59,225 nucleotides of DNA from a virus, in the IMG/VR virus record IMGVR_UViG_3300021437_000024, positions 1 through 59,225 of that record; one strand, written 5' to 3'. The notes beneath the pieces are model-generated. The model ran no database searches, was not told where the DNA came from, and worked only from the letters and a program-made list of their open reading frames with translations. Shown here in pieces: positions 5,930-57,582 of the stretch; the first letter of the stretch is position 1, and each line of letters begins with the position of its first letter. The position numbers were made by a program, and so were the translations under genes.

Positions 5930-5947
5930 TTATTAAGGAGTTTCCAA

Positions 5948-7003
5948 ATGGCACTAGAAGATAAGATCAAAGCTTTGAAAGAAGCAGCTGCAAAACTAAA
6001 TGAAGCAAAGTCTAAAGAGGCTGACTTCAATAAAGATGCTGACGAAGATCAGGATAATGACATCACCAATGATAACGAGAAGGATGCATTGGTCGATGGT
6101 TCTGAAGATGAGACCAAAGGTAAAAAGGGTGATGCTGTGAAAGAAGCAACAGATCCAAATCAATCTCAAGCAGCTACTGGTCAAGACCAAGATAAGGTTG
6201 GTACTAGCAATGCAAAGATCAAGCGTAAGATGACAGGTCAAGACCCTAAGCCAACTGGTCCAAGCCCAGTTAAGGAAGCTATTGATCTAGGTGCCCTGTT
6301 TGATGGCACTGATTTGACAGAAGAATTTAAGACCAAGGCTATTACGATTTTCGAAGCAGCAGTGGCGGCACGTGTTTCCCAAATTCAGGAATCACTGGAA
6401 GAAGAATTGGCTCTTCGTGCTCTAACCGAGTCCGAAGAACTAAAAGAGGGGTTAGTTGAAAAAGTTGATGGATACCTTGACTTTATTGTCGAGCAGTGGA
6501 TGAATAAGAATGAAATCGCCCTTGACCGTGGTATCAAAGCGGAAATCTTTGAGAGCTTTATTAGCAAGATGCATGATGTGTTCGTAGAGCACAACATTAA
6601 TCTTCCTGATGAAGAATTTGATCTGGTAGAATCTCTACAAGATAAGAATGAAGCTCTGGAAGAATCCCTAGATGAACAGGTTGCTCAGAACGTCGAATTG
6701 ACAAAGACTATTAAGCAATATGCTAAGGATGCAGCAATCAATGAAGCTACCGAAGGTATGACTGATATTGATGCTGAAAAGTTCTCGCTATTGGCTGAAG
6801 AAATTGCTTTCGATGATGAAGTCTCGTTTAAGACAAAGTTGAACGTAATCCGTGAAAACTATGTTGGTAATAAGACAGCTAAGAAGGAAGAAAAGGTCCT
6901 GGAAGAAAATGTTACACTAGATGCTAACACACCAGCACCATTGAATGAAACAGTTAAGACTCTCGATCCAAATATGGCTCGTTACGTCAGCGCAATTAAG
7001 TAA
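5948..7003 (+). CDS. 22: Prohead scaffold protein gp22
   Basis: This is the internal scaffold on which the capsid shell forms; gp21 later degrades it. The protein has 351 residues, is highly acidic and helical, and has an N-terminal Lys/Glu/Ala-rich heptad-like stretch and a coiled-coil-like centre (SLQDKNEALEESLDEQVAQN). The T4 homologue is shorter (269). AAGGAG lies 6 bases before the ATG. Order gp21-gp22-gp23 is as in T4. Confidence 0.9.
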   Translation: MALEDKIKALKEAAAKLNEAKSKEADFNKDADEDQDNDITNDNEKDALVDGSEDETKGKKGDAVKEATDPNQSQAATGQDQDKVGTSNAKIKRKMTGQDPKPTGPSPVKEAIDLGALFDGTDLTEEFKTKAITIFEAAVAARVSQIQESLEEELALRALTESEELKEGLVEKVDGYLDFIVEQWMNKNEIALDRGIKAEIFESFISKMHDVFVEHNINLPDEEFDLVESLQDKNEALEESLDEQVAQNVELTKTIKQYAKDAAINEATEGMTDIDAEKFSLLAEEIAFDDEVSFKTKLNVIRENYVGNKTAKKEEKVLEENVTLDANTPAPLNETVKTLDPNMARYVSAIK

Positions 7004-19652: not shown

Positions 19653-20312
19653 ATGAAACTATCAAAAGAAACATTGGCTGTTATTCGTAACTTTGCCGGT
19701 ATTAATCAAAACCTTCTGATTAAGAAGGGTAATCAACTCGATACTATCAATGTTCAGAAGAACGTAATTGCTAGTGCTTCGGTTGATGAAACATTCGACA
19801 CACAATTCGGTATCTATGACGCAGGTGAATTCCTCGGTGTTATTGGATTGTTTAGCAATCCTGATATTGAATTCAAGGAAAAGTTTGCTGTCATCAAGGA
19901 AGGCGGTTCCAGTGTCAAGTTCTACGCGGCGGATGAATCTGTATTGACTGTTCCAACTAAATCTGTCAAGTTCCCTGATGCTGATATTCACTTTGAGTTG
20001 TCCGAAGAACAATTGGCAACAATTCAAAAGACTGCAAGTGTATTGCGTGCTTTGGATGTATCGGTAATCGGTAAGGATGGAAAACTGGTTGTTTGTGTTG
20101 GAGACTTGAAGAACACCACCGCAAATACATTCAATTTGGAATTGGGTGATACCGATGCAGCAGATTTTACGGCCAATATCAAGATTGAAAACTTGAAGCT
20201 GATGCCACGTAAGTACACTGTGTCTATTTCTCGTAAGAAGATTAGCCGCTTTGTTTCTGAAGATGGTAAACTGACCGTTTACGTTGCTTTGGAATCTACA
20301 TCTGAACTATAA
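19653..20312 (+). CDS. 45: Sliding clamp gp45
   Basis: The trimeric clamp that tethers polymerase gp43 and, in T4, activates late transcription through gp55/gp33. The 219-residue sequence (T4 228) starts MKLSKETLAVIRNFAGINQ, a close match in pattern to T4 gp45, with IYDAGEFLGVIGLF near residue 50. It is three bases after the previous gene and leads into the clamp loader block. Confidence 0.95.
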   Translation: MKLSKETLAVIRNFAGINQNLLIKKGNQLDTINVQKNVIASASVDETFDTQFGIYDAGEFLGVIGLFSNPDIEFKEKFAVIKEGGSSVKFYAADESVLTVPTKSVKFPDADIHFELSEEQLATIQKTASVLRALDVSVIGKDGKLVVCVGDLKNTTANTFNLELGDTDAADFTANIKIENLKLMPRKYTVSISRKKISRFVSEDGKLTVYVALESTSEL

Positions 20313-20615: not shown

Positions 20616-20691
20616 TGCGACTCTAGCATAATGGTAGTGCCGAGAACTCATAATTCTTAAGGTCTGGGTTCGACTCCCGGGGGTCGCACCA
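20616..20691 (+). tRNA. tRNA-Met (CAT)
   Basis: A full cloverleaf with 7-bp acceptor stem, anticodon loop CTCATAA, canonical TTCGACT T-loop and encoded CCA. U1-A72 pairs, so it is an elongator Met or an Ile(CAU), not an initiator. Confidence 0.92.
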
Positions 20692-20702
20692 AAAGGATTT
20701 AT

Positions 20703-21029
20703 ATGACACCAGGACAGATAAAACAGAAAATTGAAGATTTAGAAAAGACTGTGACGTTATTGCAAAATACAGTAACACTTCTACAGACCTCGGTCATCAA
20801 TTTGCAACAACAGGTGAATAATATTTCACGGAACAATATGAATAATATTCCAATTTGGCCGGGTTATTATCCGCCAAATTGGACACCGGCTCCAGTGACT
20901 TGGCCGACATTTAAGCCATATGAAGTGACTTGTCAAGATGGTTCTACTATCAAGATTAATTCACCAATTGTGGCCCAAGGTCGATGGGAGCCAGGTGCAA
21001 CAGCTAATGAATGGAAACCAATTCCATAA
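20703..21029 (+). CDS. Coiled-coil protein, unknown
   Basis: 108 residues. Residues 5-45 are a heptad coiled coil (LEKTVTLLQNTVTLLQTSV), followed by a Pro/Trp-rich linker and a C-terminal YEVTCQDGSTIKI strand. It might be a trimeric virion or accessory protein; no family recognised. It lies between tRNA-Met and the tmRNA gene. Confidence 0.65.
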   Translation: MTPGQIKQKIEDLEKTVTLLQNTVTLLQTSVINLQQQVNNISRNNMNNIPIWPGYYPPNWTPAPVTWPTFKPYEVTCQDGSTIKINSPIVAQGRWEPGATANEWKPIP

Positions 21030-21103
21030 ATAGAAGTAATGGTAGTCAACTGACTTTCAGAAACGATTGGAACACCCCGGTTCGATTCCGGGCAGTTCCA
21101 CCA

Positions 21104-21192
21104 CAAGTGTTCTAGAAGATGAAATACTCTCAGGGCTCGTACACCGCATACCTCTCGTGGAAAGTATGTATAGACGTTAGAACACTTCTGAT
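21104..21192 (+). other. tmRNA intervening segment closed by inverted repeat
   Basis: AAGTGTTCTA just after the CCA and TAGAACACTT just before the coding piece form a 10-bp stem that holds the two acceptor strands together. In known permuted tmRNAs this segment is cut out to give two RNA pieces. Confidence 0.8.
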
Positions 21193-21279
21193 GGGACTGA
21201 ACAGGTTTTCGACTCCGAAAGAAGTAAGATAGATTAGCTACTCGTCAGTGATAGACGTAAAAACTAAATGTAAGTAAAT

Positions 21280-21324
21280 GCAAATATTGCACAAAACGAT
21301 GAGGTCTTCGCTCTTGTAGCGTGA
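21280..21324 (+). other. tmRNA proteolysis tag frame
   Basis: The frame reads ANIAQNDEVFALVA followed by TGA. An AN...NDE...FAL-x-A pattern matches bacterial tags, which end in an AL-A-type degradation signal. The resume codon is likely GCA at 21280, or GTA two codons earlier. Confidence 0.75.
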
Positions 21325-21409
21325 TCGACTCTGAGGTAACATAGCCTTATAACCGAATAATGTCTAGCAGTGGGAGGGAAGGCTAGTAAAACATTCCTCT
21401 CGCCATTAT

Positions 21410-21438
21410 TTCTTTCTATTGTGTCCGTGTGATACAAT
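21410..21438 (+). promoter_or_regulatory. Early-type promoter before gp44
   Basis: TTCTTT, 17 nt, TACAAT with TGA upstream; a divergent member of the repeated family, 29 bases before the gp44 start. Confidence 0.6.
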
Positions 21439-21466
21439 AGCATATCTACATTATGAAAGTCATACA

Positions 21467-22417
21467 ATGAGCATTGACAACGACAAGCTGAATTCATTAG
21501 TTTGGGCAGAGAAGTATCGCCCCAAGAAACTTGAAGATGCTATTCTCCCAGAATCAACTAAGAAAATGATCCGTGATCTTTTGGATAGTGGAAATATCCC
21601 GCACTTCTTGTTCACTGGTACAGCTGGTACAGGTAAAACTACACTGGCAAGAATCATCGCAAACGAACTCGATGCCGACCTGATGTACATCAATGCTTCG
21701 TTAGAAGGCATTGATGCAGTTCGTCTGAATGTGATTCAGTTCTCGTCGTCTGTGTCATTTGGTGATGGAATTAAGATTGTTCTTCTTGACGAGTTCGATG
21801 GAGCCAGTGCTCAGCAACAACAATCGTTGCGTGGTGTTATTGAACAATTTCCGAACACGCGATTTATTTTCACGTGTAATTTCAAGAATAAGGTTATGGA
21901 TGCTATTCATAGCCGATGCCAAGTAATTGACTTTAAAGTCCCTAAGACAGAAATTCCAAAACTCCAGGCTGCATTTTTCAAGCGTGTTATTACAATTCTC
22001 GAGACAGAAAATATCGAGTACGATAAGCCGGCGGTTGCCGAGTTGGTCAAAAAGTTCTACCCCGATTTCCGTAGCACTCTGAACGCTTTGCAGAGTTATA
22101 GTTCAAGTGGTAAGATTGACACAGGTATTCTTGTTAACCAAACCGATGCTTTAATTGAAGAACTGGCCAAACATTTGAAGGTAAAAAACTTCACCGAGAT
22201 GCGCAAGTGGGTTGGTAATTATAATGATATGGAACCGGAAGTCGTGTTCCGCGGTCTGTATGATAAGGTAATTCCACAGCTTGATCCGCGTTGTGTACCA
22301 AGTGTTATTGTTACCCTCGGTGATTATATGTATAAGTGTAGTCAAGTAGCGGACACAGAAGTTCTTGTTGCTGCAGCACTAACTCACTTCATGTCGGAGG
22401 CTGTGTGGAATTCGTAA
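21467..22417 (+). CDS. 44: Clamp loader large subunit gp44
   Basis: The AAA+ ATPase that, with gp62, opens and loads the gp45 clamp. Start ATG 21467; 316 residues (T4 319). Walker A FTGTAGTGKTTLARI near residue 45, Walker B IVLLDEFDG, and the SRC box in AIHSRCQVI are visible. Its own early-type promoter precedes it, and the end overlaps the next gene by 13 bases. Confidence 0.95.
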   Translation: MSIDNDKLNSLVWAEKYRPKKLEDAILPESTKKMIRDLLDSGNIPHFLFTGTAGTGKTTLARIIANELDADLMYINASLEGIDAVRLNVIQFSSSVSFGDGIKIVLLDEFDGASAQQQQSLRGVIEQFPNTRFIFTCNFKNKVMDAIHSRCQVIDFKVPKTEIPKLQAAFFKRVITILETENIEYDKPAVAELVKKFYPDFRSTLNALQSYSSSGKIDTGILVNQTDALIEELAKHLKVKNFTEMRKWVGNYNDMEPEVVFRGLYDKVIPQLDPRCVPSVIVTLGDYMYKCSQVADTEVLVAAALTHFMSEAVWNS

Positions 22418-36178: not shown

Positions 36179-36679
36179 TATAAAATAAGATTTAACGAGG
36201 CGTAGCTCGTGGCATTGACGAAAGTCAGTGTTGTGTGATAAGTGTAGTGATACACCCAAAGATGTGATGCTTACATAGCATCGCCTAGCAATAGGTCACT
36301 CTACGCAAGCCTGCTCAGACTCGTGAGGGTCCCATCATGGATAAGACCTGTGGTGGTAACAGTGAAGCAAGTGTAATGGAAAGAACATTGGCTTAGACGC
36401 CCGCAAGGGGAACGTCAGTCGATGGAGAGTAACAGGTGGTGCTGACCTCATTACAAACCAACTTGGCAACTGGTATGAGAAAAGGTAGTCAGAGTAATCC
36501 GAGGAGTCGCATCCAAGGGTGGCTGGCAGTTTGAATGGTTTATGGTGGTACGCGAAAGCCGAGACCCAACATGAATCGTGAAAGACGACTGAGTAGCTCG
36601 CGAGGCAAAAGGTACGTGGTGTGTTGTATTTCGTGGAACAAAATTTTGCGAAGCAACTGAGACTGCACATCACAGTAAG

Positions 36680-36750
36680 TTATTTGTAGCATAATGGTAA
36701 TGCAATTTCCTGTTAAGAAATACACTGTTGGTTCAAATCCAACCAAAATT
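36680..36750 (+). tRNA. tRNA-Asn-like element (GTT) inside the large RNA
   Basis: Anticodon stem ATTTC/GAAAT with loop CTGTTAA, D-arm GCAT...ATGC with GG, T-arm GTTGG-TTCAAAT-CCAAC. The acceptor has only about four pairs and no CCA, and the whole sits in a 10-bp helix. It may be a structural mimic rather than a working tRNA. Confidence 0.6.
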
Positions 36751-37167
36751 TAAAACGCAAAGACAGTCTCGGTAGTATGTGAAAGACATCTAAAACTTTG
36801 ATCCGTAAGGATAACGAAGTCTAGTGAAACTCGCAAGGTGACATTAGTTTATGGTGGAAACTTCATAGATGGTTAGCGCCGTCGAACAGCTCGCAAGGTT
36901 GGTGGGGAATGATACTGTAGAATAGCATATTACGATAAGTCTACTGCCTGACTTTCAAAACGGCGATGTTAACGGTTTACGGATACGCGAAAGCTGAGAC
37001 CCCGTGGAAGAGGAGCGAAGTGTGACTCGCAAGGTTACATTATAATGCACGAAGAACCGTTGTAACGACTGTATTCTCAGGTCGCTAAAGTGTTTATTAT
37101 ATTGAGCAAATTATAAGCAAGTGTTTAATATATTGTACATTTTAATGTTTTTTAACTGGAGTTTATT

Positions 37168-39766: not shown

Positions 39767-39841
39767 GCGATGTTAGCTTAGTGGTAAAGCAGATGCCTCT
39801 AAAACATTTGATCGAGGGTTCGATCCCCTCACATCGCGCCA
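39767..39841 (+). tRNA. tRNA with 9-base anticodon loop (TCT or CTA)
   Basis: Perfect acceptor GCGATGT/ACATCGC, D-loop with GG, T-loop TTCGATC, GCCA end. The best anticodon stem AGATG/CATTT leaves loop CCTCTAAAA. Arg(TCT) with C33 or, read after T33, CTA. Confidence 0.7.
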
Positions 39842-45777: not shown

Positions 45778-46845
45778 ATGAAAATTTATCTAGTTGGCGG
45801 TGCTGTCCGCGATATGCTGATGGGGCTGGAACCTAATGACCGAGATTATGTGGTTGTTGGTTCCTCACCAAACGAAATGTTAGACTTGGGATATACCCAA
45901 GTCGGCGCGGATTTTCCTGTATTCCTACACCCAGATACTGGAGAAGAATACGCTCTCGCCCGTAGTGAACGTAAGATCGGACCGGGGTATCTTGGCTTCG
46001 AGACTCAATTCGACTCGACGGTTACTCTTGAGCAAGATTTGGAGCGGCGCGATTTCACAATGAATGCGATTGCAATGGATATTGAATCTAAAGAGATCAT
46101 TGATCCATTCTGCGGCCAACTGGATATTAAAAATAAAATCATTAGACATACAAGCCCCGCTTTTGATGAAGACCCACTACGAGTCATTAGAGCTGCTAGA
46201 TTTTACACAAAATATAATGGTTTTAGAATAGATACAAACACATTTAGATTGTGTAAATCTATAGCCGAATCCCGCTCACTTAACGAAATTAGTGATGAGC
46301 GATTTTGGGCAGAATTTAAAAAGGTTAATTCAAAAAACTTGGTTAATTTCTTTTCTGTGCTTTTTGCATTTGGAGTTTTCGACCACTGTGATATGTTCAA
46401 AGATACATTTGGTGAAACAGATTTGTATGTTTTTGATGATATGTCTCATAATTTGTCACACATTAATAGACTGAACATTTTTGTGGCGAGAATTGCTTAC
46501 AGATGTAATGCAAAACTAACACGGCCTTCAGTACCATCAGATGTCCGTTGGTTGATGAGTATCTTAAAATCTAACTATAATCTTTTATATAATGCGGATG
46601 AAGCAGTTGATTTTATCTCACATGCAAGAGGTTGGTTTGATATTGAGCGTTTAGTTATTGCTAGACTAGCTTTGCCTTACTGTGCTTTTTCATTAGAAGA
46701 ACTTATGATCATTGTTGCAAGAACTTCAAAAATTGATACCTCGTGTGCAATTGATTCTTCATTGAGAAAACTAGAAGGTAAAGAAATTGGTGATTGGATT
46801 AGAAATGAACGCATTAAAATTACCGAAAATATTTTGAAAGGTTAA
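45778..46845 (+). CDS. cca: CCA-adding tRNA nucleotidyltransferase
   Basis: 355 residues. The N-terminal class II nucleotidyltransferase is clear: YLVGGAVRDMLMG, NDRDYVVVG (catalytic D-x-D), EYALARSERKIG, then the neck RRDFTMNAIAM, DPLRVIRAARF and ERFWAEFKK. It repairs or adds the tRNA 3' CCA. At least two phage tRNAs (Tyr, Cys) lack an encoded CCA, giving it work to do. The C-terminal part is diverged. Confidence 0.92.
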   Translation: MKIYLVGGAVRDMLMGLEPNDRDYVVVGSSPNEMLDLGYTQVGADFPVFLHPDTGEEYALARSERKIGPGYLGFETQFDSTVTLEQDLERRDFTMNAIAMDIESKEIIDPFCGQLDIKNKIIRHTSPAFDEDPLRVIRAARFYTKYNGFRIDTNTFRLCKSIAESRSLNEISDERFWAEFKKVNSKNLVNFFSVLFAFGVFDHCDMFKDTFGETDLYVFDDMSHNLSHINRLNIFVARIAYRCNAKLTRPSVPSDVRWLMSILKSNYNLLYNADEAVDFISHARGWFDIERLVIARLALPYCAFSLEELMIIVARTSKIDTSCAIDSSLRKLEGKEIGDWIRNERIKITENILKG

Positions 46846-56230: not shown

Positions 56231-56551
56231 ATGTCAACTGTAAAATCAATTGAGCAAGAAATTGCCAAAACTAAAAAGACTCTTGAAAATTTAGAGGAAC
56301 AACTTCTAAATGCAAAGTCAGAATCCCCCGATCAACAACTCGCCAAGGTATTACATAGTAAACTATGTCATTGGAATCACACAGACGGGTGCGGTTGGTA
56401 CTATGAAATGAATAATGGTATTGATGACTGGACGCGTTCTGAGCATGGGAACTACCTTACTAAGGCACGCAAGATGATTGGAATGTGTGAAAAACGGCAT
56501 ATTTCGGTCAATGACGCAATTGAAATTTTTGATATGGTGAACAAGGTATGA
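56231..56551 (+). CDS. Coiled-coil protein, unknown
   Basis: 106 residues. Residues 4-35 are a coiled coil (KSIEQEIAKTKKTLENLEEQ); then CHWNHTDGCGWYYE with two Cys and two His may hold zinc. Overlaps nadM by 4 bases, so the two are co-translated. Confidence 0.68.
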   Translation: MSTVKSIEQEIAKTKKTLENLEEQLLNAKSESPDQQLAKVLHSKLCHWNHTDGCGWYYEMNNGIDDWTRSEHGNYLTKARKMIGMCEKRHISVNDAIEIFDMVNKV

Positions 56552-57582
56552 AAAAGTACACTAATATCGTGCTGATTGGTCGTTTTCAACCAATTCACAA
56601 TGCACACGTTGCTATCATCGAGAAAGCAATGTCCCTGGCAAAAAATCTGATCATCATTATCGGATCAGCAAACAAGCCACGTAAGTACAAAGACCCGTTC
56701 ACTGTTCTTGAACGGAAACATCTGATTCAGCAAGCGATCAACGAAGCTGATCTACGTACTCGCTACGATTGTTCGGTTGAAATTTCATCTGTAGAAGATA
56801 CATTCTACAATGATGACGCATGGGCAACCCGCGTGCAGGCTATTGTGGATGCGAACAAGGTTTTTCCTGGTAACACTGCTATCATTGGACACAAAAAAGA
56901 TGAAAGTTCATTCTATTTGGATATGTTCCCCCAATGGGAATTTGTGGAGTTTCCATTCTCTAATGTTTTGCATGCCACTGATATTCGTGATCTGTATTTC
57001 CGTGATCCGACGAATTTTGACTTCCTCGAAAATGTAGTTCCCCCAATAACTATGTTGTTCATGCGGCAGTTTGCAACAAGCCCCGCATTTAAGCAAATTA
57101 TCGAAGAACGAAAGTTCATTGCAGAATACCGCAAACAGTTTGATGGGTTGAAGTATGCTCCAGTCTTTGTCACAGCTGATGCCGTGGTTACTTGTGCGGG
57201 ACATATTCTCCTAGTTGAACGCGGAGCTCTTCCCGGCAAAGGACTGTGGGCACTTCCTGGTGGATTCTTGAATGCAAATACTGATCGTAGTATGCGAGAT
57301 TGTATGATCCGCGAACTACGTGAGGAAACTAAACTCAAAGTTCCTGCACCAGTTCTTCTTGGTAACATTGTAAACGAAAAGGTATTTGATGCTATCACAC
57401 GAAGTGACCGCGGTCGGATTGTAACACACGCATTTCACATTGCTCTTCCGCCTGGTCCACTACCAAAGGTCAAAGGTAGCGATGATGCTCGTCATGCAGA
57501 GTGGGTACCAATTGCAAGTCTAAAATCTGAAGACTTCTTTGATGATCACATTGAAATTATACGTTATTTCACAGGAACTTGA
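56548..57582 (+). CDS. nadM: Bifunctional NMN adenylyltransferase / Nudix hydrolase (NadM-type)
   Basis: 344 residues. The N-terminal nucleotidyltransferase has LIGRFQPIHNAHVAII (the HxGH-like N-x-H) and a later AIIGHKKDESSFYLDMF. The C-terminal Nudix box is GGFLNANTDRSMRDCMIRELREET, i.e. G-x5-E-type with the R-E-x-x-E-E core (ELREET). It makes NAD+ from NMN and may hydrolyse ADP-ribose-like compounds. Works with NadV next door. Confidence 0.93.
   Translation: MKKYTNIVLIGRFQPIHNAHVAIIEKAMSLAKNLIIIIGSANKPRKYKDPFTVLERKHLIQQAINEADLRTRYDCSVEISSVEDTFYNDDAWATRVQAIVDANKVFPGNTAIIGHKKDESSFYLDMFPQWEFVEFPFSNVLHATDIRDLYFRDPTNFDFLENVVPPITMLFMRQFATSPAFKQIIEERKFIAEYRKQFDGLKYAPVFVTADAVVTCAGHILLVERGALPGKGLWALPGGFLNANTDRSMRDCMIRELREETKLKVPAPVLLGNIVNEKVFDAITRSDRGRIVTHAFHIALPPGPLPKVKGSDDARHAEWVPIASLKSEDFFDDHIEIIRYFTGT

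Follow-up and report, generated by a model that had tools for sequence, protein, structure and literature searches.

Genomic Setting of the tmRNA Locus

The stretch of DNA analysed here, referred to as the window, is a 59-kb virus record of 59,225 nucleotides. Its T4-like genes encode a tail sheath, a capsid scaffold, a gp45 clamp and a gp44 clamp loader (Pfam), as well as a family B polymerase, UvsX and a DnaB-type helicase. By DNA polymerase, the nearest annotated phages were cyanophages and marine viruses, about 42% identical. Between an ORF of unknown product (20703-21029) and gp44, which starts at 21467, lies a gene that is very likely a phage permuted tmRNA. A nucleotide search of annotated phages with this gene as query gave no match. 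The features of the locus are as follows.

19653-20312: gp45-like clamp (Pfam gp45-slide_C)
20617-20691, plus strand: tRNA with CAT anticodon, upstream of the tmRNA, a neighbour kept in three of three phages
21041-21103, plus strand: acceptor (3' tRNA-like) piece, beginning with P2 strand GGTAGT and closing with an encoded CCA; start from the RF04321 match at 21041
21076-21092, plus strand: T-arm, stem CCCGG/CCGGG and loop TTCGATT (sequence, script)
21093-21103, plus strand: 3' acceptor strand CAGTTCC (21093-21099), A73 (21100) and CCA (21101-21103)
21104-21192, plus strand: intervening sequence of 89 nt, predicted to be removed, with CTGAT before the 5' GGG
21193-21405, plus strand: coding piece (5' tRNA-like and mRNA-like); RF01850 match ends at 21405, 3' end approximate
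21193-21199, plus strand: 5' acceptor strand GGGACTG (script; compensatory changes in the relative L004)
21206-21213, plus strand: tmRNA 5' signature TTTTCGAC, D-loop region (sequence; aligned to RF04321)
21280-21324, plus strand: tag reading frame with resume codon GCA at 21280, tag ANIAQNDEVFALVA and stop TGA at 21322-21324 (ARAGORN at 95%)
21467-22417, plus strand: gp44-like sliding-clamp loader, downstream neighbour (Pfam Gp44_lid, AAA)

Just 5' of gp44, a hairpin was seen at 21419-21441 (TATTGT...ACAATA). Its counterpart in L004 lies at about 5947-5975 (TTGTAAT...ATTACAA), conserved in shape and not in sequence. The hairpin could be a translational operator or a processing signal.

Anatomy of the Permuted Gene

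An earlier reading of the sequence alone had proposed that an acceptor piece precedes a coding piece. This order was found, with the CCA ending at 21103 and the coding piece starting at G21193. The span given at that time, 21045-21403, started slightly late, as the acceptor piece begins at 21041 or earlier, while its other coordinates held. The mature 5' end of the acceptor piece may lie upstream of 21041, since the beta model reaches 20998. At the other end of the gene, a terminal stem (21370-21377/21396-21403) precedes the approximate 3' end of the coding piece.

The acceptor strands CAGTTCC (21093-21099) and GGGACTG (21193-21199) pair at seven of seven positions across the spacer. The third pair is G3·U70, formed by G21195 with U21097, and A73 and the CCA end are also present. 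The combination of G3·U70 and A73 constitutes the signals for alanyl-tRNA synthetase. The spacer itself is closed by a stem between AAGTGTTCTAG (21105-21115) and TTAGAACACTT (21177-21187), which opens one base after the CCA and closes five bases before the GGG. This stem had been described as 10 bp long and consists of 11 pairs, and shuffling the spacer 300 times never produced one as good. The fold of the whole transcript was weakly better than that of shuffled sequences (z -1.87); such an uninformative result is expected because the RNA is pseudoknotted. No clear sigma-70 promoter was found in front of the tmRNA gene, which counts against a functional reading.

The proposed tag of 14 residues ending in TGA was recovered exactly, with codons at 21280-21321 followed by the stop at 21322-21324. 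This mRNA-like part bears on the question of whether the RNA might be a decoy or inhibitor of host trans-translation. Mycobacteriophage DS6A likewise carries a tmRNA relative, consisting of a tRNA-like domain without the tag part, and a DS6A-like molecule strongly inhibits tmRNA, perhaps via SmpB titration (PMC4131195). The window tmRNA is by comparison complete and permuted, with a resume signal, an open tag of 14 codons and a stop, and the decoy explanation is therefore regarded as most unlikely.

Detection by Covariance Models and ARAGORN

The whole window was searched with the RF04321 model (tmRNA_permuted), which matched 21041-21324 with 84 bits (E = 1.2e-14), above the curated cut-off of 47. 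The match covers the full model (positions 1-213 of 213) and showed no difference that matters, although this model pairs the tRNA-like domain only. The RF01850 model (beta_tmRNA) aligned end to end with 20998-21405 and scored 78.5 bits (E = 7.1e-24 in a 791-nt search), below its curated gathering cut-off of 84. The gene is therefore called beta-like and is not assigned to RF01850. The permuted tmRNA proposed in the sequence-only reading was thus recovered by one family model above its cut-off and by the other at full length but below it.

ARAGORN missed the gene at default settings. At the 95% threshold it called a permuted tmRNA with exactly the tag ANIAQNDEVFALVA, so that the proposal found support from this program only at the relaxed setting; thresholds of 70% or 50% led to many false calls.

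Relatives Carrying the Gene at the Same Locus

Relatives were retrieved from viral contigs with gp44 as the query. A sister phage (L003, 164,769 bp) has a gp44 that is 99% identical, and a more distant phage (L004, a 75,996-bp contig) has one that is 79% identical. Both carry a permuted tmRNA at the same gp45-gp44 locus, scoring above the cut-off with 82.7 and 96.7 bits, respectively. Among the other 48 gp44 records tested (gp44 about 35-48% identical, many of them fragments), a permuted tmRNA was found in none. When the acceptor end or the 5' signature was used as an exact pattern, the sister phage alone was retrieved, or nothing.

Comparison of L003 with the window revealed that 74 of 74 bases are identical in the leader and acceptor piece (21030-21103) and 217 of 220 in the coding piece (21193-21412). 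In the flanks, 300 of 327 bases of the upstream ORF and 972 of 1005 of the gp44 region are identical. Three bases of the coding piece differ in L003. Two of them lie in helices whose pairing is kept: through A21196G, acceptor pair 4 is G·U where the window has A-U, and through T21400C the 3' terminal stem gains a G-C in place of a G·U. The third, T21249C, lies within a hairpin loop. In L004 the acceptor stem again forms seven of seven pairs and keeps G3·U70, with two double compensatory changes (pair 4 from A-U to C-G, pair 6 from U-A to A-U), so that the pairing of the two acceptor strands holds in related phages. The T-loop of L004 is unusual (GGCAGTA).

The spacers of the two sister phages (89 nt in the window, 78 nt in L003) agree in no more than 39 of 90 alignment columns and are unrelated in sequence. 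The L003 spacer is nevertheless stem-closed too, with TAACTAT/ATAGTTA directly 3' of the CCA; this stem is shorter and not significant alone (p 0.07). The absence of spacer homology between sister phages lends indirect support to the predicted cutting of the RNA into two stable pieces. The covariance models, the three syntenic phage loci and the conserved mature pieces around an unrelated, still stem-closed spacer together bear out the proposal of a phage-encoded permuted tmRNA. Judged by sequence comparison, the conserved pieces and the synteny indicate that the split tmRNA has been maintained and probably works, with SmpB that the host would supply.

Two other origins of the gene were weighed against these data. 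A host ssrA gene that was recently captured and is decaying without function in the phage could account for the four-residue insertion in the tag and for the score below the beta cut-off, both of which could mean drift. Conservation of the mature pieces, however, exceeds that of the flanking ORFs while the spacers cannot be aligned, compensatory changes maintain the acceptor stem, and the gene occupies the same locus in L004, whose gp44 is only 79% identical; a decaying captured gene is thus very unlikely. Since ssrA genes are frequent integration sites (PMC11915505), the contig might alternatively be a chimera, with the locus coming from a bacterium or an attachment site. The same gp45/gp44 position within a T4-like replication cluster on three separate contigs refutes this in practice, and none of the proteins examined stood out as an integrase; the chance of a chimera is minimal. 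The gene is accordingly regarded, with high confidence, as a complete and probably functional circularly permuted ssrA of betaproteobacterial type in a T4-like phage.

As a separate observation, GGGTTCGACTCCCACC in the L003 spacer (L003:5673-5750) looks like the relic of a T-arm. Over 16-17 bases it matches other loci, some of the matches lying in tmRNA T-arms, which hints that this spacer was exchanged by recombination at a tRNA-like sequence.

Permuted tmRNAs in Other Viruses and Burkholderiales

A script collected 43 distinct permuted genes from the listed viral matches and Burkholderiales loci, at least about 30 of them viral (IMG/VR). G3·U70 and A73 were present in all 43, and in most of them the spacer stem is positioned as in the window. 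Because the script was conditioned on seven of seven acceptor pairs and did not require G3·U70 or A73, only these two features and the spacer stem count as independent. The cut-off of the beta model was exceeded by three of 60 sampled Burkholderiales genomes; the permuted form therefore appears to be a minority in Burkholderiales, and the cellular comparison of LAA and LVA endings is small.

In viral permuted tmRNAs, a U55 to G change was seen, giving T-loops TGCGAAT, TGCGATT or TGCAAAT and not TTCGA.. (contigs L102, L106, L108, L111, L118, L123, L124, L131, L132, L150, L157, L179 and L187). Such T-loops were not seen in the Burkholderiales genes examined, and two of these contigs also carry phage-type SSB and exonuclease genes. 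In Cupriavidus pinatubonensis HN-2 (L224, L220, L226, L228), five permuted tmRNA genes score highly; they are distributed among chromosomes and a plasmid.

The LVA-Ended Tag

Compared with beta-type tags of the ANDExFALAA form, the window tag ANIAQNDEVFALVA keeps the NDE.FAL core, carries an insertion of four residues (NIAQ) and has LVA in place of LAA at its end. The tag of L004, ANDERFSLVA, has no insertion and is also LVA-ended. The exact window tag rests on two very close phages. A search of viral contigs for the ANDExF-type pattern gave at least 120 matches; among the matches listed, the complete tags were nearly all ANDExFALAA, and none of about 115 ended in LVA. A viral search for LVA-ended beta tags retrieved the L004 contig only, and one for the tag start ANIAQND the sister phage only. 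Among 399 Burkholderiales genomes, an LVA-ended tag of the searched form occurred in none and the LAA form in 10. A pattern scan of the genome collection likewise gave zero LVA-ended matches; it carries no weight here, since the corresponding LAA control gave only 12, a low number partly explained by most Burkholderiales genes not being permuted (see the three of 60 above). Within these viral and Burkholderiales searches, LVA-ended tags appeared in the small phage clade only, and the sequence comparisons support a window tag that differs from other beta-type tags.

This restriction of beta-type LVA endings to one clade in the searches made would fit a full tmRNA whose altered tag was selected to change the fate of tagged proteins, for example by slower degradation or by avoidance of host adaptors. 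Such selection would refine the reading as a functional tmRNA and does not exclude it. In E. coli, LacI-LVA had a half-life of about 13 min and LacI-LAA of 8 min at 37 C, and of 41 and 38 min, respectively, at 25 C (PMC3511798). LVA thus remains a degron there, degraded almost as fast as LAA, which argues against the altered-tag explanation. The L004 tag is moreover LVA-ended without the insertion, and shared descent explains LVA equally well. Selection for an altered fate is for these reasons considered unlikely. The suggestion in the sequence-only reading that the tag alters the fate of tagged proteins has so far found no support. It is equally doubtful that the small T4-like phage clade evolved a tag of its own, LVA-ended and in one lineage extended by four residues, such that host- and phage-tagged chains differ in degradation or adaptor recognition during infection.

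Other RNA and tRNA-Related Genes of the Phage

The phage has about 25-30 tRNA genes. A GOLLD giant RNA (36616-37083, 175 bits, Rfam) lies inside a large tRNA array, with a tRNA-Asn (36679-36752) embedded in it; an embedded predicted tRNA in GOLLD is already known (PMC6582537). GOLLD was also found in the sister phage L003 and on another viral contig with a permuted tmRNA (L118, G457). A tRNA with a CTA (amber) anticodon at 39767-39841, named tRNA-Pyl by ARAGORN, may be an amber suppressor. This tRNA raised the possibility that TAG is recoded, which was dismissed since TAG still serves as a stop, albeit rarely (4 of 71 ORFs in the window, 5 of 175 in a relative). The tmRNA tags of these phages stop at TGA or TAA, not TAG.

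A protein resembling CCA-adding tRNA nucleotidyltransferase (45778-46845) matches over its N-terminal ~200 residues (E 2e-81) and scores below the equivalog cut-offs. A protein resembling bifunctional NMN adenylyltransferase/Nudix enzymes (56548-57582, E 8e-108) was also found, suggesting phage NAD metabolism genes.

Proposed Mechanism and Use

Neither the window nor its two relatives (164.8 kb and 76 kb) gave an SmpB match. Because no recognisable phage SmpB is present in the sequence searched, host SmpB would be required. Transcription, cutting, charging, the use of host SmpB and the benefit to the phage are steps that we infer, as follows. The gene would be transcribed within the gp45-gp44 region, and host tRNA-processing enzymes would cut the precursor: RNase P would act at 21193, and trimming would bring the 3' end back to the CCA at 21103. 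With the spacer (21104-21192) gone, the two pieces would be held together by the acceptor and P2 helices. With G3·U70 and A73 present, host alanyl-tRNA synthetase would presumably charge the RNA with alanine, and host SmpB and EF-Tu would carry the charged RNA to ribosomes that have stalled. From GCA 21280 onward, translation would continue on the tmRNA and append (A)ANIAQNDEVFALVA, after which the ribosome would be released at TGA and the tagged peptide passed to host proteases. The likely benefit would be that ribosomes are kept free and amino acids recycled during host gene shut-off and mRNA cleavage; ribosomes would probably stay available once host ssrA transcription stops. For Melnitz, an OM43 phage, tagging has been proposed to serve amino-acid recycling (PMC9004378).

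Comparison with Known Systems and Significance

Phage-borne permuted tmRNAs have already been published, and the window gene adds a clear further example. In the 2022 report with Melnitz, two-piece candidates made up 53 of 133 unique phage tmRNAs, and 50 of the 53 came from marine or aquatic samples (PMC9004378). The 2025 tmRNA database, which is the source of RF04321, holds 79 phage sequences (PMC11915505). Melnitz resembles the window phage as a T4-like aquatic myophage with a permuted ssrA (PMC9004378). Its tmRNA is of alphaproteobacterial type, whereas the window gene is of betaproteobacterial type and lies between gp45 and gp44. Alongside the Melnitz tmRNA, the presence of a glutamine riboswitch and of a transcription coactivator was reported (PMC9004378), and the Rfam search of the window found no riboswitch family.

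The RF01850 genes, for example of Cupriavidus, share with the window gene the full-length alignment, the gene order, the tag core NDE.F, a spacer stem running from 0-1 nt after the CCA to 4-5 nt before the GGG, and TGAT before the GGG. The window gene differs in its 89-nt spacer, as against about 30 nt in the Burkholderiales genes examined, in its score under the gathering cut-off and in its tag with the NIAQ insert and LVA end. What sets the present case apart is that a beta-like gene adjoins gp44, that its tag is extended and LVA-ended, and that the spacer has been exchanged between the two sister phages.

ARAGORN at default overlooks such genes, and counts of phage tmRNAs are likely too low because permuted genes are missed at this setting. 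The locus provides an evolutionarily supported case of a phage with its own split ribosome-rescue RNA, without SmpB, adjoining its replication genes. The near-invariant mature pieces set against a fully exchanged spacer provide evidence from nature that what counts is the two-piece form, and with its extended, LVA-ended tag the gene offers a way to test why phages carry tmRNA.
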